From positions 275,428-339,427 of the forward strand of contig NZ_LMUH01000009.1 of NCBI RefSeq assembly GCF_009766105.1: 64,000 nucleotides of DNA, given 5' to 3'. Shown here one piece after another: positions 19,021 through 50,792 of the stretch. This DNA is from Granulicella sp. S156 (GTDB lineage Bacteria > Acidobacteriota > Terriglobia > Terriglobales > Acidobacteriaceae). Positions within the stretch are counted from its first letter, which is position 1. Each line of letters begins with the position of its first letter. Below the pieces are notes generated by a model. It did not search any database, was not told the origin of the DNA, and worked only from the letters and a program-made list of their open reading frames with translations. The translations under genes were made by a program, and so were the position numbers.

Positions 19021-19854
19021 ATGAACTCACGATCGCCTGAACTTAATCCAACTCGTACGCAGACGCTCGGCGCGTTTCTCCGGGCTCATCGTGAGCGTCT
19101 TTCGCCCTTGGCGCTGGGATTTCCTTCCACCGGCCGCCGTAGAACTCCGGGCCTTCGACGAGAAGAGCTTGCCCAACTATGCGGGGTGAGCACTACCTGG
19201 TACACCTGGCTTGAGCAGGGCCGTCCTGTGTCTGCCTCCGCAGCTGCATTGTCACGGATCGCAGCGGCACTTCAGCTCTCCCGTGCTGAAAAGTTGTACT
19301 TGTTCGAGATCGCTCGTTCGGTCGTTACAGACCCGCAGGAGATACATGAATCTGCTGTGCCTGCAGATCTGAAGGACCTGGTAGACCAGATACCTACACC
19401 GGCCTATGTCCTGGATCGCCAATGGAATGCTGTGATATGGAACCGAATGGCGGCAAAACTATTCCGGCCATGGCTGGTTGAATCACAGGATCGCCATCTG
19501 CTCCGTTTCGTATTTTTGAACCCATCAGCGCGCACCCTGATCGTGGATTGGAAAAGTCGTGCGAGACGCCTGGTCGCCGAGTTTCGGTCCGATGCAGGAA
19601 GGTATTTGAGTGAGCCCCCGACACAGAGGCTGATCTCCGAGTTGCAGCTCAACAGCAAGTTGTTCGCAAAGTACTGGAGTGAACAGAACGTGAGCGCGCG
19701 CGAAGGAGGGGTTCGTGCCTTTCGATCGAGCAAGGGAGTCATTAGTGCGTATGGTCAGGTGTCCTTGATTCCAAGTATCAATACGGATCTCAGGCTCATC
19801 GCGCTTGTCCCTCAAGCATCTCGAGTTAAAACTGGCGGCTTGCCCAGGTCATAG
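19021..19854 (+). CDS. XRE/MmyB-type transcriptional regulator
   Basis: A 277-residue regulator. The N-terminal helix-turn-helix (LGAFLRAHRERLSPLALGFPSTGRRRTPGLRREELAQLCGVSTTWYTWLEQGRPVSASAAALSRIAAAL) is the signature of the group whose C-terminal half is the MmyB ligand-binding domain (PF17765), here IPTPAYVLDRQWNAVIWNRMAAKLF onwards. Such proteins frequently regulate a divergent SDR or methyltransferase gene, and a methyltransferase gene is divergent here. Between the two starts, 18909-19020 is AT-rich with two GGTACAAGATAAG / CTGGTATAAGTG-like near-repeats that could be operators. Confidence 0.88.
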   Translation: MNSRSPELNPTRTQTLGAFLRAHRERLSPLALGFPSTGRRRTPGLRREELAQLCGVSTTWYTWLEQGRPVSASAAALSRIAAALQLSRAEKLYLFEIARSVVTDPQEIHESAVPADLKDLVDQIPTPAYVLDRQWNAVIWNRMAAKLFRPWLVESQDRHLLRFVFLNPSARTLIVDWKSRARRLVAEFRSDAGRYLSEPPTQRLISELQLNSKLFAKYWSEQNVSAREGGVRAFRSSKGVISAYGQVSLIPSINTDLRLIALVPQASRVKTGGLPRS

Positions 19855-19905
19855 GGTGCGCCTTCAGAGGGGCGGCACTGACTTTATTGTGGCCCAAAGT
19901 CTAGG

Positions 19906-19940
19906 TTGACCAGCCCTGATTCTAATGATACGTTCATTAG
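19906..19940 (+). promoter_or_regulatory. Candidate promoter with palindromic operator in the 19855-20282 gap
   Basis: The 428-bp gap before the 20.3-24.9 kb gene cluster holds no convincing gene. It does hold TTGACC (19906-19911) followed by the perfect palindrome CTAATGA-TACGT-TCATTAG (19922-19940), a typical TetR/MarR-style site, at the place where a -10 element would lie. If real, the transcript has a leader of about 340 bases before the first gene. Confidence 0.4.
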
Positions 19941-20282
19941 TATCTTTTCGCCCGGGCTTCAATGTCTCGTTTCGGGTGAATGTCGCATGAAGAGTCTTTG
20001 CCGCTAACTCGCTTTCGGGCTGCGCATTTCATCATGTTCCATCGATACACCAAACTCGTTTTTTCAAAACGCGTTTGTGCTTCTCCTGTTAAACCTGAAT
20101 TCTTCAGGCCGTCTTATTTGGCCCTGCAGATCTGATTGCTATTCGTCACAGCCTGACGGACGCATATCTGTCTGTGCGCGTTCGCGTTTTGTGCCAGGCT
20201 CCACTCGCTTCAAAAGCGAACAAGAGGGGCTGTGTCAGCACCGCGAAGATGTACTGAAGTTCAGTCCATACCAATATCAACA

Positions 20283-20750
20283 ATGGGTGCAAGGATGCGA
20301 AAGCTAAAAGTACTTGTTTCGGCGTGGCTGCTGTTGTGGGCCTGTTGTCTCTATGGCGATACAACAAGTGTTCCCTATACCTCTGAAGTCGTAATCCGCG
20401 ACATGCTCATCAAAAAAGTCACTCCTGTTTTCCCCCCAGAGGCTCTGGCCTCCGTTCGACATGCGGCCCTCATCGAGGCTCACATCGTCATGAATGTTAG
20501 CGGGGATGTGGTGGATGCCACGATTCTCGAAAGCCCTGATCCAAGCGTGAACAAAGCAGTTCTCCAGGCGCTGTGGCAATGGAAGTTCAAACCTTTTACC
20601 GGGGTGAGCAAGGATTTCAAGCTTGCAGGAAAACTGACCTTCTACTGCATCGTGGATGGCAAGTCGGGCAGGATCGTGAATCCCGACGAGGTTGGAATCG
20701 TGGAACTCGATGGCCGGGAACCTGCCGTCTCCAAAGAAAAGGCGAGGTAA
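20283..20750 (+). CDS. Exported TonB C-terminal-like protein
   Basis: About 155 residues with a signal peptide (MRKLKVLVSAWLLLWACCLYGD) and one domain like the C-terminal domain of energy transducer TonB: VTPVFPPEALASVRHAALIEAHIVMNVSGDVVDATILESPDPSVNKAVLQALWQWKFKP. The long Pro-rich linker and ExbBD contact helix of true TonB are missing, so it is more likely a periplasmic protein borrowing the fold. Starts at 20283 and 20295 are both in frame and neither has a good ribosome-binding site. It is followed four bases later by the thioredoxin-rhodanese gene, so the two are co-transcribed and form the head of the peptide-like cluster. Confidence 0.72.
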   Translation: MGARMRKLKVLVSAWLLLWACCLYGDTTSVPYTSEVVIRDMLIKKVTPVFPPEALASVRHAALIEAHIVMNVSGDVVDATILESPDPSVNKAVLQALWQWKFKPFTGVSKDFKLAGKLTFYCIVDGKSGRIVNPDEVGIVELDGREPAVSKEKAR

Positions 20751-20753
20751 CTC

Positions 20754-21713
20754 ATGGCGCGTATTCTGAAATATCTTACGGTCACCATCAATGTGATGTG
20801 CGTCGTGGTTCTGGCGTTTGTTCTCTGGTTTGTCTGGCAGCGTTATACAAAACCCGGACAGGAATTTTCTCTCTTTCCCACTCATGAGAAGCTACATGCT
20901 GGCGCAAAGCTCGATACAGGTCTGAGTTTGCTGGCTAGTGATCGGCCCACACTTTTTGTGGCTCTGAATAAGGGGTGCCATTACTGCGCAGCAAGCTCGG
21001 CGTTTTACGAAAAGGTGAGCCAATACAACAAGGTCGCCAAGGTTGTGGCGCTCTTCCCCAATACTGTCCCTGATGCCTCAGGGTACGTGCAGAAACTCAA
21101 TCTCAAAACCGACGCCATGGCGGTCGCGGATTATTCCAAGATGGGTGTGCTTGGCACGCCCACCACGATCCTGGCGGATCCCCGAGGAAAGATTCTAGGA
21201 GTCTGGAATGGCCTGCTCGATCATACGGTCCAGACTGAGGTGCTCAAGCGTCTCGGGGCTTCGGACGAGGAGGCCTATGTTCCAGCGCTTGCCGATACCG
21301 TCGCACTTGCCAGTATTGCCAAACCCGTGACCGAGGACTCCTATACCTACGCACAGGTAAAAGAGATGCAGGCCCTACACAAGGCGTTTACGCTCGTCGA
21401 CGTTCGCGACCGCAGCCAGTATGGCAATGGACATCTTCCCGGTGCGATCAATATTCCGCTCGATGAGTTTGAAGTTCGAGGGCCCCACGAAATCAAAAAG
21501 GACAGTCTGTTGATTGTGGATTGCTCCTACTGCAGCGAGTGCGAAGTTAAGCAGCGAAGCAGTGGGCTACCATCGCTTTGCACGATGTCAGCTCAACTCA
21601 TCGACAAATATGGGTTCAGCAATCTCGCTCTTGTCTACGACGAGAGGACAGGGGCGCGGTCTCTTTCTGCCGAGAATGAGGCCGCACATGGCGGACATAG
21701 TGGAGGGCAGTGA
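20754..21713 (+). CDS. Membrane-anchored thioredoxin-rhodanese fusion with extra cysteines
   Basis: A 319-residue two-domain redox/sulfur protein. Residues 8-29 form an N-terminal membrane helix. Residues about 40-170 are a thioredoxin fold with C75-H-Y-C78 and cis-Pro in GTPTT (P136). Residues about 190-300 are a rhodanese-like domain (FTLVDVRDRSQYGNGHLPGAINIPLDEF). Its active-site loop is atypical: instead of CxxGxR it carries C257, C260, C263 and C276. The cysteines could relay electrons or sulfur, or bind a metal. The topology places both domains outside the cytoplasm, where the six-cysteine protein encoded next would fold. GAGG lies six bases before the ATG. A function in disulfide or sulfur chemistry of that protein is inference. 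Confidence 0.8.
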   Translation: MARILKYLTVTINVMCVVVLAFVLWFVWQRYTKPGQEFSLFPTHEKLHAGAKLDTGLSLLASDRPTLFVALNKGCHYCAASSAFYEKVSQYNKVAKVVALFPNTVPDASGYVQKLNLKTDAMAVADYSKMGVLGTPTTILADPRGKILGVWNGLLDHTVQTEVLKRLGASDEEAYVPALADTVALASIAKPVTEDSYTYAQVKEMQALHKAFTLVDVRDRSQYGNGHLPGAINIPLDEFEVRGPHEIKKDSLLIVDCSYCSECEVKQRSSGLPSLCTMSAQLIDKYGFSNLALVYDERTGARSLSAENEAAHGGHSGGQ

Positions 21714-21865
21714 GCGAGCACCCGGCACGGCATTTTTAGGCAGCTTTCAATCCGATTCGCCGCACAATCTTCGCGCCGAAGGGAAAAGTTTCGCGCTGGG
21801 CAAATCCAGAACTTCAAGGTTTGCCGGGCACGAAAGAACGCAACAATCAACCAAGGAGATAACTG

Positions 21866-22102
21866 ATGAGAATGAACAAGAATGTATTGAGCTTTACGTG
21901 GTCTGTTCTTCGCCTTTCCAGCCTCTGTGGACTGGCTCTCACTCTGACCGGCATGACACACGCGACCAAAGCCAAGGCCTGCTATCAGTGCGTATCAGTC
22001 GGTCAAGGTGGAAGCTACCATATGTGTCAAAGCGAAAGCGTTGGCGGCGCCACCTGCGTCGGTGGCGGGGTAGAGTGCTCGATCAGTGGCAGCTGCAACT
22101 AA
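21866..22102 (+). CDS. Secreted six-cysteine mini-protein, candidate modified-peptide precursor
   Basis: A 78-residue protein that matches no family I know. Residues 1-38 look like a Sec signal: basic start (RMNKN), a long hydrophobic stretch, and AKA (36-38) as a cleavage site just before C39. The mature part would be about 40 residues, rich in Gly and Ser, with six cysteines at 39, 42, 54, 64, 71 and 77 and few charges. AAGGAG lies eight bases before the ATG. It is followed by a signal peptidase gene and the PqqD-like/DxD protein. Disulfide-rich toxin, glycosylated peptide or structural mini-protein are all possible. Confidence 0.7.
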   Translation: MRMNKNVLSFTWSVLRLSSLCGLALTLTGMTHATKAKACYQCVSVGQGGSYHMCQSESVGGATCVGGGVECSISGSCN

Positions 22103-22258
22103 CATCACCTGAACATCCTCTTGGAGAGCATGCCGTGCCTTTGCTTCTTGAGAATCCCGGCATGTTCCCAGAGATGCGGTTGGAACAGCGAGCAGCAATA
22201 ATACGGTCCACCTGTAGATCGTTGCTCGCATTAAGAAGTTACTGGTGCATCGAAGCCA

Positions 22259-22912
22259 ATGATCAGAGCCAAAGAGCGCTCCAATAGTCTGCGAAAATAT
22301 GGGATTTATTTTGTCGCCGCAGTCTGTTTTTGCGCCGTGATTATCCTGACCGGATCTCGGTACGCGCTTGTCAAGGTAGAAGCCGGATCCATGGAGAGCA
22401 CGCTCTTTGACGGAGACTGGATGCTTCAGGACCGTTCCGGTGCAAACCTGGAGAGAGGAGATGTTGTCATCTTCCAGGCACCGTGGGATCACAGCACTCT
22501 CTATGTCAAAAGAGCCATAGCGGTCGGCGGCGATATCGTAGCTGTCTGCGCAGGCCAACTCTATCTGAATGGAATGCCGTTCGCGGAGTCCTATACACAT
22601 CACTTGCCGGGGTACGACCCAAAGAGAGAGTGGTGGCCCACCAGCCGAAAAGAGGAGCCGGACGACTGCCGCACGGATGGAATTCCCGTTCCACCAGACT
22701 CCATCTTCGTAATGGGGGACAACCGCGATGCATCGACGGATTCCCGCATCTTTGGCAGCGTACCTCTGAACCTTGTTGCAGGGCGGGTTTTGTTGGCGGC
22801 CAGCTCCAGGCGAATCGAAGCCCCACTCCCGTCCATCCGAGCTTCCGTCGTGCGGCTGAGCAGAATCCCGCGAACTGCTCCTGTTCCTGAACCCACAAAT
22901 GCATCCCGGTGA
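22259..22912 (+). CDS. Type I signal peptidase (S26), cluster-associated
   Basis: A 217-residue S26 peptidase that removes signal peptides at the outer face of the inner membrane. One N-terminal helix (YGIYFVAAVCFCAVIILTGS) precedes the catalytic Ser in VEAGSMESTL and the Lys in LYVKRAIAVGGD. Box E is VMGDNRDASTDSRIFG. It is shorter than the three lepB-like proteins at 38-41 kb and diverged from them, and it has an extra Cys pair in its loop (VVAVCAGQL, EPDDCRTDG). Sitting between the Cys-rich peptide gene and the PqqD-like gene, it is probably dedicated to that peptide. The 22103-22258 gap upstream has no well-supported gene. Confidence 0.9.
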   Translation: MIRAKERSNSLRKYGIYFVAAVCFCAVIILTGSRYALVKVEAGSMESTLFDGDWMLQDRSGANLERGDVVIFQAPWDHSTLYVKRAIAVGGDIVAVCAGQLYLNGMPFAESYTHHLPGYDPKREWWPTSRKEEPDDCRTDGIPVPPDSIFVMGDNRDASTDSRIFGSVPLNLVAGRVLLAASSRRIEAPLPSIRASVVRLSRIPRTAPVPEPTNASR

Positions 22913-22920
22913 GGAAGACG

Positions 22921-24774
22921 ATGCCCCAGACGCCCATATACCCGGCACCCCGATACCGTTCCGTTGAATTTCGCGAAGTGGCCCACGCAAATGGTCTGTC
23001 GTTTTTAGTCCGGCCGGGAACAGACCAATGGTTCAATCTCTCCGATGAGCAGTTCGAACTGCTGCGCCAGTGTCAGGACTTTCGGACCCTGGAAGAGCAC
23101 GCGCATGCGATGACCGGGGATATACCGCTGGCGCGTTTCCATCGCAAGAGACTGCTTTCCCGACTGCAGGAACTCGCTGGACAACAGGCTCTCGTGGAAG
23201 AGAATGCCTTTCTGCAAAGCGTGCCTTCAGGCGAGGATACCGGCGCGAAGATTCGCTTCTTCGGAATGCTCACGCGTCACCGCACCGAAAAGATGCGGGA
23301 CACTCTGCGCGCCTGCCTGGCGCGAAATGCGAAATCGGGACGGGAGATAAAGTCGGTGGTAATCGATGATTCCACCGACGCCACAACCATCGATAACAAC
23401 CGCGAAACCCTGGCTGCTCTCGCGGAAGAGTGGGACTGCCCCATTCTTTACTGCGGATCAGAGGAGAGAGAACACTTCGCCCGGAAGTTGGCAGACGCCA
23501 CGGGAGTCGATCTGCCCCTGATCCGCTTCGCAATCGCCCCTTATAGCGCCGAGGGGACCGAGAGCATGGGAGCTGCCAGAAATGTATTGCTGTTGCAGTC
23601 TGCAGGCGCTCTCGGCTTTTCCAGCGACGACGATTTAGGCGAAAGACTTGCGCTTCCGCAACACGAAAAGAACCTGCGCATCTCCTCCGAGGGCGTTCTG
23701 GAGATGCGGTTTTTCGAGAACCGCGCTGCAGCGCTCCAACATCTGCAAGGAGCAGAGGAGGATCTGGATCTGTTCGCCTGCCATGAAAAGCTGCTGGGAA
23801 AAAATACAGCTCGTTTGATCACGGAAGAGGGGCCGGAATCAGTTTCTGTAGGGGCTATCCCATGGCCAGGTCTGCGGCGTTGCCTTCAGGGAAAGGTAGG
23901 AATAACGCTGAGCGGTCTATTCGGCGATTCGGCTACACCCGGTCCCATTGGCTATCTGATGCCGGGCGGCAGAACGCGAGCGAGCCTGATCGAAGGAGGC
24001 GAAAAGGCGTACCGGATGAAACTTGAGACGCGCGAAGTGATCCGCAGCGTCGCACAACCGTCGATTACGCCGCAGTTTGATTTCTGGGCCGGTTCGCACG
24101 GGTTCGATCACCGCACTCTGCTGCCGCCGTTCGTTCCCTGGAACCGCGCCGAAGATACCGTCATGGGCAGCATCCTGACCCACTGCTGCGCTCCGCTGGT
24201 CTGCGGCTATGTGCCCGCGCTGGCTCTGCACAATCCGCCGGAGACGCGGGCCTTCCCGTCCAACTGGCGGAGTACGTACGGGGTGATGTCGGTGAACGAG
24301 TGCCTGGTCACCTTCCTCCTGAACTATAAGTCGCCGCCCGGATTATCGGTTGAGGCGAGTCTGCGCCAGTTTGGCCTCTATCTTCAGGAGATTGGCTCCA
24401 TGCCGTTTGCTGATTTTGCCGCGACCCTTGAGTTCTATCACCGCGAGAATTTGTGCGTGCAGATCGCGCTCTTCCACAGTTACCTTGCGGGCAATTTGCC
24501 GGATTACTGGAAAGAAGATATCGCCGCCATCGCGCGCACGATGGAACAGAGACTCCAATCGCCTCATCCGCTGGAGGTACGGCTGAATCCCTATCAGCCC
24601 ATGCCGGAGGGTAAATCTGGTCTGCAGAGAGCGCATGAACTCGCCTTGCGCTTTGGGCAGCTTCTGGAAGCCTGGCCTGCCCTCGTACAAGCAGCAGGAC
24701 AAATGCCAGAGGACGAACGAGCAGGTCGGCCCATTAGAGAACGTTCCGTCGTGTCTAGCGTCGGAGTGTCATGA
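22921..24774 (+). CDS. PqqD-like domain fused to a DxD (GT-A-like) transferase domain
   Basis: A 617-residue protein. Residues about 10-95 resemble PqqD-type peptide-recognition domains (SVEFREVAHANGLSFLVRPGTDQWFNLSDEQFELL, then a helix pair ending QELAGQQALVEEN). Residues about 110-400 resemble a GT-A glycosyltransferase: VVIDDST (147-152), GAARN (217-221) and the metal-type SSDDD (234-238). The same three motifs occur, with identical 17-residue spacing between the last two, in the protein at 57.9 kb. The C-terminal third is helical with no recognised domain. I prefer the ATG at 22921, five bases after GAGGA; a GTG at 22909 overlaps the signal peptidase stop. The fusion suggests it binds a leader peptide and modifies it, which is inference. 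Confidence 0.75.
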   Translation: MPQTPIYPAPRYRSVEFREVAHANGLSFLVRPGTDQWFNLSDEQFELLRQCQDFRTLEEHAHAMTGDIPLARFHRKRLLSRLQELAGQQALVEENAFLQSVPSGEDTGAKIRFFGMLTRHRTEKMRDTLRACLARNAKSGREIKSVVIDDSTDATTIDNNRETLAALAEEWDCPILYCGSEEREHFARKLADATGVDLPLIRFAIAPYSAEGTESMGAARNVLLLQSAGALGFSSDDDLGERLALPQHEKNLRISSEGVLEMRFFENRAAALQHLQGAEEDLDLFACHEKLLGKNTARLITEEGPESVSVGAIPWPGLRRCLQGKVGITLSGLFGDSATPGPIGYLMPGGRTRASLIEGGEKAYRMKLETREVIRSVAQPSITPQFDFWAGSHGFDHRTLLPPFVPWNRAEDTVMGSILTHCCAPLVCGYVPALALHNPPETRAFPSNWRSTYGVMSVNECLVTFLLNYKSPPGLSVEASLRQFGLYLQEIGSMPFADFAATLEFYHRENLCVQIALFHSYLAGNLPDYWKEDIAAIARTMEQRLQSPHPLEVRLNPYQPMPEGKSGLQRAHELALRFGQLLEAWPALVQAAGQMPEDERAGRPIRERSVVSSVGVS

Positions 24775-24935
24775 ATAACATAGACACAGTGCAAGAGACA
24801 TTGCTACCTGCAGACAGCAAGCTGAATGCAATCGAATCCTTTGAAGCCATAGCTTCCGGCGTCGACTTTATCTACGCTCATTCGGCTGCATCCGCACTCT
24901 CACACCCTGGCGCAAGCCTGATCTCTTCTCCTTGA
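24771..24935 (+). CDS. Small ORF (54 codons), translationally coupled to the PqqD-like gene
   Basis: An ORF that begins with ATG overlapping the TGA of the preceding gene (ATGA at 24771-24774). It encodes 54 residues, starting MNNIDTVQETLLPADSKLNA and ending ASLISSP. The first half is acidic and probably helical; the second half is rich in Ser, Ala, His and Gly and has no Cys. It has no signal peptide, unlike the six-Cys protein. The architecture, acidic leader plus small-residue tail directly behind a PqqD-like protein, fits a peptide precursor. It may also be a chance ORF: its stop overlaps the -35 of the next promoter. Confidence 0.45.
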   Translation: MNNIDTVQETLLPADSKLNAIESFEAIASGVDFIYAHSAASALSHPGASLISSP

Positions 24936-24977
24936 CAGCTTAGGAAAGAGCATCCTACACTCCTAATCATCTTAGGA
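24932..24977 (+). promoter_or_regulatory. Promoter and inverted-repeat operator of padR-ADOP
   Basis: TTGACA (24932-24937) and TACACT (24956-24961), 18 bp apart, form a good sigma-70 promoter. Two inverted repeats overlap it: TAGGA-N7-TCCTA (24941-24957, written with the flanking bases) and TCCTAA-N5-TTAGGA (24961-24977); the latter also covers the ribosome-binding AGGAGG. Probable PadR autoregulation. Confidence 0.6.
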
Positions 24978-24983
24978 GGACGC

Positions 24984-25325
24984 ATGTCCAGCCAGGCCCA
25001 GCTTCTCCCCGGCACGCTCGACCTTCTCATCCTGAAAGCCGTCAGCCTCGGCCCGCTCCACGGCTACGGCATTCTTCTGCGCATCGGGCAAATCTCCAAC
25101 CAGGCACTCCTCATTGAGCAGGGTGCGCTGTATCCGGCCTTGTTTCGCCTGGTACGCCAGGGGCTTCTGACGGCGAGTTGGGGTACATCGGAAAACAATC
25201 GTCGCGCCAAGTTCTACGAGCTCACAATCACAGGCCGCAAGCGTTTCCGCGAGGAGACACAGGACTGGAACCGTCTCGCCTCAGCCATAGCCGTTGCCCT
25301 CGCTGCACAACCGGAGGAACTATGA
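24984..25325 (+). CDS. PadR-family transcriptional regulator
   Basis: A 113-residue PadR regulator of the short type: QLLPGTLDLLILKAVSLGPLHGYGILLRIGQIS followed by the wing LLIEQGALYPALFRLVRQGLLTASWGTSENNRRAKFYELTITGRKRF. In Acidobacteria such genes almost always precede an ADOP-type permease, as here, and repress it. Its TGA overlaps the permease ATG (ATGA at 25322). TTAGGAGGA before the ATG is both ribosome-binding site and part of a palindrome. Confidence 0.93.
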   Translation: MSSQAQLLPGTLDLLILKAVSLGPLHGYGILLRIGQISNQALLIEQGALYPALFRLVRQGLLTASWGTSENNRRAKFYELTITGRKRFREETQDWNRLASAIAVALAAQPEEL

Positions 25326-37523: not shown

Positions 37524-38393
37524 ATGACCACGCGGCGCAGCCGGAAGACTTCACCCAGTACGGAACCTGCCGACGAACTGCAGCGTCTGCTCGGATATCG
37601 TTTTACCCAGCCCGAGCTGCTCGCGCTTGCGCTGACGCACCGCTCGCACACGTATGAGGCTCGCCACGGTGCTCCTGCCGTCATTCTTCCCGCGCACCCC
37701 GATCAGCGCGATCAGCGCAATCCCCCTGGTACCGACAATGAGCAGTTAGAGTTCCTTGGTGACTCCATTCTCGGTCTGGTGGTGACTGAGGCGCTGTATC
37801 GCGAGTTTCCGAATAGTTCGGAGGGTGAGCTGACCCGGCTGCGTTCCATTCTGGTGAGCCGTGCCCGCATGGCCGAGGTTGGAGCGGAACTGGGGCTGGG
37901 CGAGCAACTGCTCCTCGGCAAGAGCGCGGACCAGAACGGTGGCCGCAAGAAGCCGGCTCTGCTGGCCAACGCTGCAGAAGCCGTGATCGCGGCGGTCTAT
38001 CTTGACGCTGGTGCGAAAGGACTCAAGGCCGTGCGCGGCATTGTCGATCGCCATCTGCTCGCGAAGGATCTCGATGTTATGCGTGCGGCACTGGCGGGGG
38101 ACGACGGTCACGGCGCACTCCGCGATCACAAGACGGTGTTGCAGGAACGCGTACAGGCCTCCGGCCTGGGCAGGCTGCGCTACATCGACACGGCGCAGAC
38201 CGGGCCGGCACACCAGCGAAGGTTCTCTGTCGAGGCCCAGCTTGAAGGAGAGGCTGGAACACGCGTATTAGCAGCGGCCGAGGGTTCCAACAAGAAGGAA
38301 GCACAACAGCGCGCCGCCGAACTCGCGCTGGCGCAGTGGGAGGCGAACGGCCTGCCGGCAAGGCCTCCCAAAACGCCTAAGGGTGACGCTTGA
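37524..38393 (+). CDS. rnc: Ribonuclease III
   Basis: A 289-residue double-strand-specific endoribonuclease that processes rRNA and other structured RNAs. The catalytic signature is NEQLEFLGDSILGLVVTEALY, and the second acidic site is in LANAAEAVIAAVYLDAG. A double-stranded RNA-binding domain follows (DHKTVLQERVQASGLG ... GSNKKEAQQRAAELAL). It is longer than E. coli Rnc because of insertions after the N-terminal helix (ARHGAPAVILPAHPDQRDQRN). The ATG at 37524 is preferred for the upstream GGAGAGG; a GTG at 37464 is possible. Its TGA overlaps the TTG of the next gene, so the signal peptidase is coupled to it. Confidence 0.95.
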   Translation: MTTRRSRKTSPSTEPADELQRLLGYRFTQPELLALALTHRSHTYEARHGAPAVILPAHPDQRDQRNPPGTDNEQLEFLGDSILGLVVTEALYREFPNSSEGELTRLRSILVSRARMAEVGAELGLGEQLLLGKSADQNGGRKKPALLANAAEAVIAAVYLDAGAKGLKAVRGIVDRHLLAKDLDVMRAALAGDDGHGALRDHKTVLQERVQASGLGRLRYIDTAQTGPAHQRRFSVEAQLEGEAGTRVLAAAEGSNKKEAQQRAAELALAQWEANGLPARPPKTPKGDA

Positions 38394-39142
38394 ACGAGGG
38401 GCTGCGGCCGGAGGCCGGAGACGCCATGCCGGTGCATCCTGCACACGCGGCAGAGAAGGTGCATGACGGTGTGCTGTCGCATCTGCAGGCTCTGCTTGAG
38501 ATCGTGGTCCTCGCAATATTTTTCGCTACATTCATCGCTCAGCCGGATCGAGTACCGTCCGAATCGATGGATCCGACGCTGCGGGTGGGCGATTTTTACC
38601 TCGTGAACAAGCAGGCCTGCGCGCCCACCGGCGTCCTCGACCGGGTACTGCCAGCCGCGACCGTTCACCGCGGAGATCTGGTCGTCTTCCACTATCCGGC
38701 CGATCCCGGCAAGAATCTGGTCAAACGGGTCGTTGGCCTTCCAGGAGACCGTCTGCGCTTGCGCGACGGACGCGTCTTCCTCGATGGTTCGCCTCTGGCA
38801 GAGCCCTATGCGGTCTATACCGAGGCGCAGCCTGACGGCTTTCGCGACGACTTTCCCTCCATGCGCAGCGCAGATCCGACCGTCGATCCGCGCTGGTGGG
38901 CCGAGTTGCGGCGCATCGTGACGAATGGCGAGATCGTCGTGCCGCCGGACCGCTACTTCGTCATGGGTGACAACCGCAATGACAGCGAAGATAGCCGTTA
39001 CTGGGGTTTCGTCCCGCGCCAGGCCTTGATTGGGCGTCCGCTGCTTGTGTACTTCTCGCTGGCTGCGCCGCTGGTCACCAACCAGCCTGGGCTGAAGACA
39101 TCTTTGCGCAATCGCTGGCATGACATCCGCGTGCTGCGGTAG
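38390..39142 (+). CDS. lepB: Type I signal peptidase, copy 1 of 3
   Basis: A 250-residue inner-membrane peptidase that cleaves signal peptides from exported proteins. The N-terminal helix is LQALLEIVVLAIFFATFIAQ; catalytic Ser is in VPSESMDPTL and Lys in LVKRVVGLPGD; box E is FVMGDNRNDSEDSRYWG. The loop between differs from the two following copies and carries RWWAELRRIVTNGE. The TTG start overlaps the rnc stop (TTGA), an rnc-lepB pairing common in this phylum. Confidence 0.93.
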   Translation: MNEGLRPEAGDAMPVHPAHAAEKVHDGVLSHLQALLEIVVLAIFFATFIAQPDRVPSESMDPTLRVGDFYLVNKQACAPTGVLDRVLPAATVHRGDLVVFHYPADPGKNLVKRVVGLPGDRLRLRDGRVFLDGSPLAEPYAVYTEAQPDGFRDDFPSMRSADPTVDPRWWAELRRIVTNGEIVVPPDRYFVMGDNRNDSEDSRYWGFVPRQALIGRPLLVYFSLAAPLVTNQPGLKTSLRNRWHDIRVLR

Positions 39143-39149
39143 GAGTCTT

Positions 39150-40191
39150 GCAGGTTACACTGGCCAAGCCATTTGCTGTAAGGAGATCCACCGAGTTGGA
39201 CAAGAGAGCAGAGAAACCGGCCGTTGTAGAACTCAATGACGCTGCCGCAGGGCACTCAAAGGACGCGGAGCGAGCTGAGACGCCGTTGGAAGCGCTGTCT
39301 TCCCTCAGTACTGTCGTTGTCGTCTGGCTCTTCCTCATGGGATTCGTCTTTCAGAACATGGAGATTCCTTCTGCCTCCATGGAAAATACGCTGCTGATCG
39401 GTGATCACGTGGTCGTCGACCGCAGCACTCTGGCGCCACCGACAAAATGGGCTCCTTTTGTGCGCTACCGCCCGGTCCAACGTGGGGATGTCGTCGTCTT
39501 TTATAAGCCGCATTCAGAGGCCCCCGACCTGATCCTGGTGAAGCGGGCGATAGCGGTGCCGGGCGATAGGGTTCACCTGCGCAAGGGTGTGGTGTACATC
39601 AACGGCATCGCGCAGAGTGAACCCTTTGCCATCCAGCCCCGCGACGACAATTACCTTTCGTATCGCGATGACTTTCCGTCGGATCTTGCAGGTCTCCGCA
39701 GACAGGCGATCAATAGGCTGGAGGTGCTTGCAGACTGCCAGGACCCAACATGTCTCACGCAAAAGGCGTGGGCCAACAGAACGATCGCATGGACTGACGA
39801 ACTGCCCGGTTTTATCCAGGGAGAGGATCTCGTCGTTCCACCAGGCAACGTCTTTGTGATGGGTGACAACCGCACAGACAGCCTCGATGGCCGCTTCTGG
39901 GGATTTGTGCCGCAGGAGAACATTATGGGGCGGCCGTTGTTTGTCTACTGGTCGTTCAAGACGCCCGAAGATCAGGAAGACAAGACCGGCATGGGCGATC
40001 GCATCGGCTTTATCTTCCATGTGATCCTGCACATCTTTGATGGAACTCGCTGGAGTCGCGAGCTGCATGTCATTCGCTAGACGTTAAAACCTGTGAAAAC
40101 GTGGTGCGTGGTCATGGGACCGCCTTGTTTGCCTCTGCCGGAAACACGCCCCGTTGCCGCCCCGCAGGTTACACTGACCAGAGCTATTTGC
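39150..40191 (+). repeat. Duplicated upstream segment of signal peptidase copies 2 and 3
   Basis: GCAGGTTACACTG followed by a CCA and ATTTGC pattern occurs at 39150-39176 and again at 40164-40191, in each case shortly before an AGGAGA site and a TTG start. Thus the duplication covered the gene together with its leader. TACACT could be a -10 element. Confidence 0.55.
39196..40080 (+). CDS. Type I signal peptidase, copy 2 of 3
   Basis: A 294-residue S26 signal peptidase. Helix STVVVVWLFLMGFVFQ, Ser in IPSASMENTL, Lys in LVKRAIAVPGD, box E VMGDNRTDSLDGRFWG. It has a loop of about 20 residues with two Cys (LADCQDPTCLTQKAW) that copy 3 lacks. The C-terminal half, after ENIMGRPLFVYWSFKTP, is nearly identical to copy 3, so the two arose by recent tandem duplication. 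The TTG start at 39196 is set by AGGAGA upstream and by the matching TTG in copy 3; a TTG at 39148 is unlikely. Confidence 0.92.
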   Translation: MDKRAEKPAVVELNDAAAGHSKDAERAETPLEALSSLSTVVVVWLFLMGFVFQNMEIPSASMENTLLIGDHVVVDRSTLAPPTKWAPFVRYRPVQRGDVVVFYKPHSEAPDLILVKRAIAVPGDRVHLRKGVVYINGIAQSEPFAIQPRDDNYLSYRDDFPSDLAGLRRQAINRLEVLADCQDPTCLTQKAWANRTIAWTDELPGFIQGEDLVVPPGNVFVMGDNRTDSLDGRFWGFVPQENIMGRPLFVYWSFKTPEDQEDKTGMGDRIGFIFHVILHIFDGTRWSRELHVIR

Positions 40192-40210
40192 CACGAGGAG
40201 ACTCACTGAG

Positions 40211-41068
40211 TTGAACAAGAGCGTAGAGGAACCGGTCGTCTTGGAGCGCAACGCAGCTCGCAGCGTAGATCGCGACGCCGCCCCAGCGCCGAAGGATGTC
40301 GAACGCACCGAGACACCGCTGGAAGCGTTGGCTTCCATCAGTACCGTACTCGTCGTTGGGCTCTTCGTCATGGCCTTTATCTTCCAGAATTTTGAAATCC
40401 CCTCAGCCTCGATGGAGAAGACGCTGCTCATCGGCGACCATGTTGTTGTGGATCGCACGGCCTTCGCACCGCTTACCAAGTGGGCTCCGTTTGTGCACTA
40501 CCGTCCTGTGCAGCGTGGCGATGTCATCGTCTTTCTCAAGCCGAACCCCGAGACCCCGGACCTTATCCTGGTCAAGCGCGCGATTGGACTACCTGGGGAT
40601 CGCATCCATCTGCGTAAAGGCATCGTCTACCTCAATGGCGTCGCGCAGAATGAGCCGTATGCAGCTATGCCCAGCAACGATGGCAACTATGAACACGCCT
40701 ATGTCCCTTATCGTGACGACTTTCCCTCCGACGTTGCGGGCATCAGCGAGCAGGCAATCGCCAACCATGCATCCTTGTGGGCCGTCGAGCTGCCCAGCCA
40801 TATTCAGGGCGACGACCTTGTAGTTCCGCCGGGCACTGTCTTTGCCATGGGGGACAACCGCACCGAGAGCCTCGATGGCCGTTACTGGGGCTTTGTGCCG
40901 CAGGAAAACATCATGGGGCGTCCCTTGTTTGTCTACTGGTCGTTCAAGACGCCTGCCGATCAGGAAGACAAGACCGGTATGGGTGATCGCATCAGCTTCG
41001 TCTTCCATGTGATACTGCACATCTTCGACGGAACCCGCTGGAGCCGCACGCTGCATGTCATTCGTTAG
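40211..41068 (+). CDS. Type I signal peptidase, copy 3 of 3
   Basis: A 285-residue S26 signal peptidase. Ser in IPSASMEKTL, Lys in LVKRAIGLPGD and box E AMGDNRTESLDGRYWG are intact, so all three copies should be active. The helix is STVLVVGLFVMAFIFQ. Compared with copy 2 it has the insertion SNDGNYEHAYVPYRDD but no Cys-containing loop, suggesting different substrates. The TTG start follows GAGGAG. The 130-bp gap from copy 2 carries the duplicated leader, and the AsmA-like gene follows closely. Confidence 0.92.
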   Translation: MNKSVEEPVVLERNAARSVDRDAAPAPKDVERTETPLEALASISTVLVVGLFVMAFIFQNFEIPSASMEKTLLIGDHVVVDRTAFAPLTKWAPFVHYRPVQRGDVIVFLKPNPETPDLILVKRAIGLPGDRIHLRKGIVYLNGVAQNEPYAAMPSNDGNYEHAYVPYRDDFPSDVAGISEQAIANHASLWAVELPSHIQGDDLVVPPGTVFAMGDNRTESLDGRYWGFVPQENIMGRPLFVYWSFKTPADQEDKTGMGDRISFVFHVILHIFDGTRWSRTLHVIR

Positions 41069-50497: not shown

Positions 50498-50597
50498 ATC
50501 CCCGAAAGGGAAGAGGGGTCGCGCTCTTGATACTTCCAGCCATAAAAGCGGACATATCCACAAGGAATGGGATTGCGGCGGGCTATACCTCAAGATA

Positions 50598-50775
50598 TAG
50601 TGGCTATTCCGAGGTTTCTCCGCAAGGAGAATCAAAAGGGAATCTGGTGAGAATCCAGAGCTGCCCCGCAGCGGTATGCAGGTACGAAAGCCCAAGATGA
50701 CACTGGAGCCGTAAGGCACTGGGAAGTCAGGCGATTAGGTCCAAACCTGCAAGTCCGAAGACCTGCCACGGAAAT
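50598..50775 (+). ncRNA. Cobalamin (adenosylcobalamin) riboswitch
   Basis: The conserved blocks of the class I cobalamin aptamer occur in order: AAAAGGGAATCTGGTG, GAATCCAGAGCTGCCCCGC (the usual GGTG..AATCC..GCTGCCCCGC core), CACTGGGAAGTCAGG, and AAGTCCGAAGACCTGCC at the 3' side. A transcription terminator follows before the ribonucleotide reductase gene. When cofactor B12 is plentiful the RNA should fold to stop transcription of the B12-independent enzyme. Confidence 0.92.
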
Positions 50776-50792
50776 AATTCGCTCGCGCTTCC

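Follow-up and report, generated by a model that had tools for sequence, protein, structure and literature searches.

The locus and its candidate precursor

In a 64,000-nucleotide stretch of DNA from Granulicella sp. S156 (the window in the following), six predicted open reading frames (ORFs) occupy positions 20298–24935. An initial annotation, made from the sequence alone, had proposed them as a codirectional peptide-maturation locus, and the ORF listing with translations confirmed all six on the + strand. The analysis centred on a candidate precursor peptide of 78 amino acids (aa) and on a 617-aa protein in which a recognition element (RRE) of ribosomally synthesized and post-translationally modified peptides (RiPPs) is predicted to be joined to a transferase domain. 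The array also holds a signal peptidase I, a thioredoxin-like and rhodanese protein, a TonB-C-like protein and a 54-codon ORF.

The candidate precursor (21866..22105, + strand) consists of a leader, residues 1–38, ending in A-K-A, and a core, residues 39–78. The six Cys noted in the initial annotation are all in the core, and a seventh, Cys21, lies within the leader. Read from its sequence, the leader appears to be a Sec signal peptide, although it went undetected by a crude hydrophobicity filter. Lipoprotein processing at Cys21 was rejected, as the preceding residues are L-S-S-L, which we take not to be a lipobox.

Relatives of the peptide were gathered by shared 5-residue words, giving a family of 13 database entries with the window's own included. 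The leader and core were compared in 11 of them; P0026, which ends at residue 45, and P0023, which has a divergent tail, were left out. Mean identity was 80% in the leader and 43% in the core (33% without the shared Cys), and in 54 of 55 pairs the leader was more conserved than the core. All 11 cores were 37–45 aa long with 6–7 Cys. The alignment of the family contains 24 invariant columns; as P0026 stops at residue 45, most of the core could not contribute any. Signal peptides usually change faster than the mature part of a protein. Conservation of this leader down to the A-K-A before Cys39 thus suggests a specific recognition partner. With a conserved leader and a variable, Cys-rich core, as in RiPP precursors, the 78-aa peptide is by its sequence a probable RiPP-like precursor. 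The Cys3–Cys4 loop is Ser/Thr-rich across the family, with 49 of 99 residues vs 59 of 285 in the rest (the shuffle count for this loop is no probability, since the sequences are related). The window's own peptide has three Ser/Thr among its nine loop residues.

In a search of 397 genomes of the order with the peptide profile, in which the best few candidates per genome were scored, the own genome matched; one further, marginal match (E 5.8e-4), running across a stop, was discounted. The longest contigs had 31214 bases for both P0018 (peptide) and P0003 (transferase), and 61767 bases for P0021, P0022 and P0025 (peptides) and P0004 (transferase). From these equal sizes we infer that peptide and transferase relatives lie on the same contigs.

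The predicted RRE-transferase and its neighbours

Searched alone, the 617-aa protein (22921..24774, + strand) matched nothing in Pfam or NCBIfam at E up to 1. Its structure was therefore read from AlphaFold2 models, in which residues 1–103 are predicted to take an RRE fold and residues 107–596 a GT-A fold close to GT75. The modelled RRE region has three strands (18–23, 26–31 and 36–41) followed by three helices (42–50, 57–65 and 71–87), the arrangement of a three-stranded sheet and then three helices that solved RREs have. For this domain model, rows 1–13 of the Foldseek search and rows 1–18 of the VIA search were all RiPP enzymes or RREs. PF05402, to which the initial annotation had likened the N-terminal region, matched neither P0001 nor any of 35 family members at E up to 1. 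The RRE-Finder paper notes that for other RRE classes the coverage by PF05402 is incomplete (PMC7470986). We concluded that the models support a PqqD/RRE fold for the N-terminal region, which may bind a leader.

For the catalytic domain, structure comparison of the model indicated the GT75 fold, with the GT75 proteins UAM2 and MtdL as the closest solved structures. The PqqD-like domain joined to a DxD transferase-like domain, as initially described, is thus supported by the models at the level of RRE and GT-A folds. These readings come from separate domain searches and not from Foldseek with the whole 617-aa model, which gave six matches at E≤1e-3, all with low TM scores (0.12–0.28 by query). 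In an alignment of 35 family sequences the motifs DDD 236–238, R409xxD412 and H437 were found. Excluded from it were the near-duplicates P0004, P0005 and L028, the broken or partial L027, L029, L052 and L053, the fused L015, the short L019, and L058 and L059. Twelve of the 35 matched PF00535 at E up to 1, the best with 1e-5. A search of PDB sequences with the family profile gave no match at E up to 1, SunS not being directly compared. The profile search of a protein database returned ten rows, three of them new, and a close relative of the 617-aa protein is annotated as Terracidiphilus sp.

GT75 comprises nucleoside diphosphate (NDP)-sugar mutases and reversibly glycosylated proteins, UAM2 and MtdL among them (PMC9937993). 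Given these closest structures, the catalytic domain could be an NDP-sugar pyranose/furanose mutase or a cell-surface sugar transferase, with the RRE vestigial and the peptide merely disulfide-bonded; a signal peptide, a signal peptidase and a thioredoxin would suffice for such a plain disulfide peptide. We consider this unlikely. PF03214 matched nothing in this genome and none of the 35 members (E up to 1), the sequence similarity to GT75 is very weak, and the domain has an RRE fused in front. No nucleophilic Arg is evident either: at the level of the sequence alignment, the 35 members share no invariant Arg in the stretch from DDD to G335, which in GT75 holds the autoglycosylated Arg (Arg158/159). 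A comparison with two bacterial RGP-like proteins by hhalign reached a probability of 16%, too weak for residue mapping. Furthermore, one transferase relative lies inside a LanM cluster, described below.

The product of the signal peptidase I gene (22259..22912, + strand) scored 123.6 bits with TIGR02227 (cut-off 47), and the archaeal model TIGR02228 stayed under its cut-off, so that the enzyme is of bacterial type. It is an S26 match with the Ser and Lys of signal peptidase I, which align with those of the four other S26 peptidases found in the genome (30–35% identical), and the signal peptidase named in the initial annotation is hereby confirmed. Four of the five signal peptidases found in the genome, this one included, are in the window, and three signal peptidase I genes stand in tandem at 38390–41068, two of them 68% identical.

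The membrane-anchored protein at 20754..21713 (+ strand) matched the rhodanese domain PF00581 with 29.6 bits, above the cut-off of 22.2, whereas thioredoxin-like PF13098 gave 21.9 bits, below its cut-off of 27. The rhodanese part of the earlier thioredoxin-rhodanese assignment was thus recovered; the thioredoxin part is sub-threshold, with a CHYC motif present. A similar result was obtained for the apparently exported TonB-C-like protein (20298..20750, alternative start 20283, + strand), whose ORF was found and whose TonB_C score of 20.4 bits is under the cut-off of 24.6.

The last gene, the 54-codon ORF (24771..24935, + strand), overlaps the stop of the transferase gene (ATGA). Its codon score is higher than that of 92.5% of 160 window ORFs of 50–70 aa, and it is possibly translated. 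BLAST at E up to 0.05 against the 29 other transferase loci (next section) detected no relative of the TonB-C-like protein, of the signal peptidase or of the 54-aa product, although such a search can easily overlook an ORF as short as the last. Accordingly, neither the TonB-C-like protein nor the signal peptidase was accepted as a conserved part of a wider system.

Its overlap with the transferase stop and its coding-like codon use make the 54-aa product a candidate for a precursor or scaffold of its own. Some RRE proteins act on scaffold peptides. The 617-aa protein could then act on this or another peptide, or carry out other chemistry, next to an unmodified Cys-rich neighbour, and a Nannocystis transferase relative does lie in a small-molecule-like cluster (the L022 genes, see below). 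That no relative of the 54-aa product was detected in the 29 other loci speaks against this alternative, as do the equal contig sizes of the 78-aa peptide's relatives and those of the transferase, and we give it the same small chance as the mutase or cell-surface transferase reading.

The domain scan took in the eight proteins within 19021–25322. Among these no radical-SAM, LanM or YcaO model matched, in line with the initial proposal of a modification locus that lacks them. A Shine-Dalgarno pattern with one fixed spacing had no match, and a scan for promoters and terminators (5 promoter-like sites vs 2.2 in shuffles, 7 terminator-like vs 4.8) was not used as evidence. Elsewhere, a cobalamin riboswitch was detected at window positions 50595–50784 (114.5 bits), and the NCBIfam scan matched a PadR protein of the acidobacterial type TIGR03433.

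Neighbourhoods of transferase relatives

Thirty loci were compared: the window, 23 loci found by two short exact patterns, L050–L053, L058 and L059. Since the 23 rest on two such patterns, the family probably has more members. Among the 11 acidobacterial loci, five (the window, L021, L027, L029 and L050) have the transferase near a thioredoxin-like protein related to that of the window and near a protein of 74–170 aa that is rich in Cys and apparently exported. In a five-sequence comparison the thioredoxin-like relatives had E values of 5e-24 (L050), 8e-12 (L027), 6e-6 (L029) and 6e-5 (L021); against all ORFs of the 29 loci the values were 2e-21 (L050), 0.003 (L029) and 0.03 (L021), the latter two weak. 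L029 contains three related Cys-rich peptides, one frameshifted. A protein of the uncharacterised TIGR03435/DUF3738 type stands by the transferase or by the thioredoxin and peptide neighbours in L021, L025, L027 and L029 (TIGR03435 with 164.8 bits in L021; L027 and L029 by similarity).

Other candidate precursors accompany the transferase elsewhere. L059 (1374–9885), from a genome of the same family, is a class II lanthipeptide cluster with a C39 exporter, a mersacidin-type precursor (TIGR03898) and LanM (862.6 bits). It continues with a luciferase-like monooxygenase, followed by a relative of the transferase whose alignment spans profile columns 37–600; the cluster's product is possibly a glycosylated lanthipeptide. 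On a Planctomycetota contig, L008 (385–8068) holds a C39 exporter, HlyD and two tandem RRE-transferases. Its opposite strand encodes two double-Gly peptides, related to each other, in which segments with Cys flank a Ser-rich stretch. The whole is possibly a new glycocin-like cluster. Plausible precursors were also found in L014, L052 and L051, that of L051 about 3 kb off behind an ABC transporter.

Further family members were found in other settings. A cluster with an RRE-transferase relative is conserved in five Nannocystis genomes (L022, L020, L024, L026 and L028); the domains scanned in L022 indicate an amino-acid dehydrogenase, an aminotransferase, a haem-oxygenase-like enzyme and two methyltransferase-like proteins. 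L015 (7619–11485) encodes a 1288-aa protein in which a PP-binding carrier domain is joined to the transferase, a fusion like those of nonribosomal peptide and polyketide synthases. L007, on a contig labelled Melainabacteria, has three transferase-family copies within 10 kb.

Known systems and the proposed pathway

RRE-Finder reported in 2020 RRE-glycosyltransferase fusions outside the known classes (PMC7470986), and an update of 2025 described RREs fused to PF00535 glycosyltransferases (PMC12710340). The 617-aa protein resembles these in its architecture, with PF00535 also seen in its family as given above. In the text covered, those fusions are domain observations that name no precursor. Our locus comes with a family of candidate precursors bearing a Sec-type leader, and with a linked signal peptidase and a thioredoxin-like partner. 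Literature searches, mostly covering titles and abstract openings, found no characterised RRE-glycosyltransferase. Nothing was found on DUF6271, and among the matches listed nothing relevant on GT75 or on rhodanese in connection with RiPPs.

In the linear polyphosphorylated peptides (LPPs) described in 2026, the leader is reported to be cut RRE-dependently by an archaeal-type signal peptidase, such peptidases being, according to the paper, previously undescribed in RiPP pathways (PMC13381572). As here, a signal peptidase I gene is linked to an RRE and the precursors have a conserved N-terminal part. The LPPs differ in their discrete RRE, HprK-like kinase and archaeal-type peptidase, where our locus has an RRE fused to a transferase and a bacterial-type peptidase; no kinase or other LPP partner was found among the eight proteins scanned. 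DUF2063/DUF2282 systems likewise pair precursors having Sec-dependent signals with an RRE protein (PMC12710340), with other enzymes, and no such domain was found among the same eight proteins.

The glycocins (sublancin, glycocin F, thermoglycocin) are small, Cys-rich disulfide peptides from clusters with glycosyltransferase and thioredoxin-like genes, of which the thermoglycocin cluster has two thioredoxin-like ones, and carry sugar on Ser, Thr or Cys (PMC12457901). Our locus shares the Cys-rich precursor and the thioredoxin-like gene, and Ser/Thr glycosylation is proposed here. In glycocins, a C39-peptidase ABC transporter is used; here the leader looks Sec-type and ends in A-K-A, a signal peptidase is present, and the transferase is GT75-like and bears an RRE. 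No C39-peptidase exporter was found among the eight proteins scanned, whereas L008 and L059 have one. By analogy, the pathway may functionally resemble the glycocin route with Sec and signal peptidase in place of the C39 exporter. We did not class it as a glycocin, because we found neither a C39 exporter nor a double-Gly leader here and the transferase is not established as of the SunS kind.

We consider it fairly probable that the locus makes a modified, secreted ribosomal peptide by RRE-guided glycosylation, Sec export, signal-peptidase cleavage and disulfide formation. What the analysis shows are the genes, the predicted folds, the leader/core pattern and the recurring thioredoxin-like neighbour; the export route, leader binding, glycosylation and its sites, the sequence of events and the activity of the product are inferred. 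The leader of the 78-aa precursor would double as Sec signal peptide and recognition sequence. The RRE domain would bind this leader in the cytoplasm. The fused GT75-like domain, with a metal held by DDD and His, would use an NDP-sugar to glycosylate the core, with Ser/Thr of the Cys3–Cys4 loop as the most likely sites. After export by Sec, the linked signal peptidase would cleave between A-K-A and Cys39, and the membrane-anchored thioredoxin protein would help to form three disulfides. The product would probably be antimicrobial or a signal. The LPP precedent helps this reading.

Several points weigh against RRE-guided glycosylation of a secreted peptide. Leader binding and glycosylation are proposals, and the folds nearest to the model, GT75, belong to NDP-sugar mutases and not to peptide transferases. 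The search by shared 5-residue words may over-represent entries with the same leader. The transferase is rare near home: among 101 relatives the own genome alone matched, and in the family at least 4 of 398 genomes did at E up to 1e-3 (itself, G588 with 29%, G552 with L059, and one short match). A phylum search gave at least 16 of 396 genomes, 11 of them short generic GT-A matches (46–122 profile positions) not used as family members; these tallies are lower bounds, as the best few candidates per genome were scored (e.g. 3 of 24). Genes in the relatives were called by a crude script, and in 20 of 30 loci no obvious precursor was recognised, a count that includes the five Nannocystis loci with their other biosynthetic cluster and the very short or fragmentary L019 and L053. 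Cys-rich ORFs were not significantly enriched near the transferase (22 near in 56961 unassigned bases vs 19 far in 68613, p=0.18); with a crude signal-peptide filter the counts were 7 near and 2 far (p=0.05). This test was weak: the filter missed the window and L027 peptides, the Cys threshold dropped the peptides of L008 and L052 together with the second protein of L014, the L021 peptide lies just past the 3-kb limit and the L059 precursor was scored as far. Recurrence near the transferase is thus supported for the thioredoxin-like partner, whereas many relatives of the 617-aa protein show no clear small Cys-rich gene, and BLAST detected no relative of the signal peptidase in the other 29 loci.

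That RRE-transferase, Cys-rich peptide and signal peptidase are chance neighbours without a shared pathway would agree with the many distant family members lacking small Cys-rich genes, with the non-significant enrichment and with gaps of about 150 bp ahead of the peptide and peptidase genes, but is quite improbable given the recurrence in 5 of 11 acidobacterial loci, the equal-sized contigs, and six codirectional genes among which the transferase gene overlaps or abuts both neighbours.

A glycosylated secreted peptide stays the favoured product. The initial peptide-maturation reading is in this sense partly supported, with a probable precursor and the predicted folds behind it and glycosylation as our proposal. 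Its description as undescribed has to be narrowed, since an RRE-glycosyltransferase fusion and an RRE-pathway signal peptidase are each already in print, in the papers cited. New here is that both occur together with a family of Cys-rich candidate precursors, a thioredoxin partner and a catalytic domain whose fold resembles GT75. Tentatively, at somewhat less than even chance, it may represent a new RiPP class of Sec-exported, disulfide-rich glycopeptides made with a leader-guided sugar enzyme descended from or like GT75, a bacterial-type signal peptidase and a thioredoxin folding partner.

Genome-mined RRE-glycosyltransferase fusions have so far, in the literature covered, come without a defined precursor or product. 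The present locus offers a testable set: the precursor family has a sharply defined leader and a core of 37–45 residues, the cut site and the loop that is modified can each be placed as likely, and the model of the enzyme is confident. If the proposal is true, it would mean RRE-guided glycosylation of a peptide whose leader doubles as Sec signal peptide, with a GT75-like fold used on peptides. Related RRE-transferases serving lanthipeptides and C39-exported peptides elsewhere would then point to a general peptide-glycosylation module.

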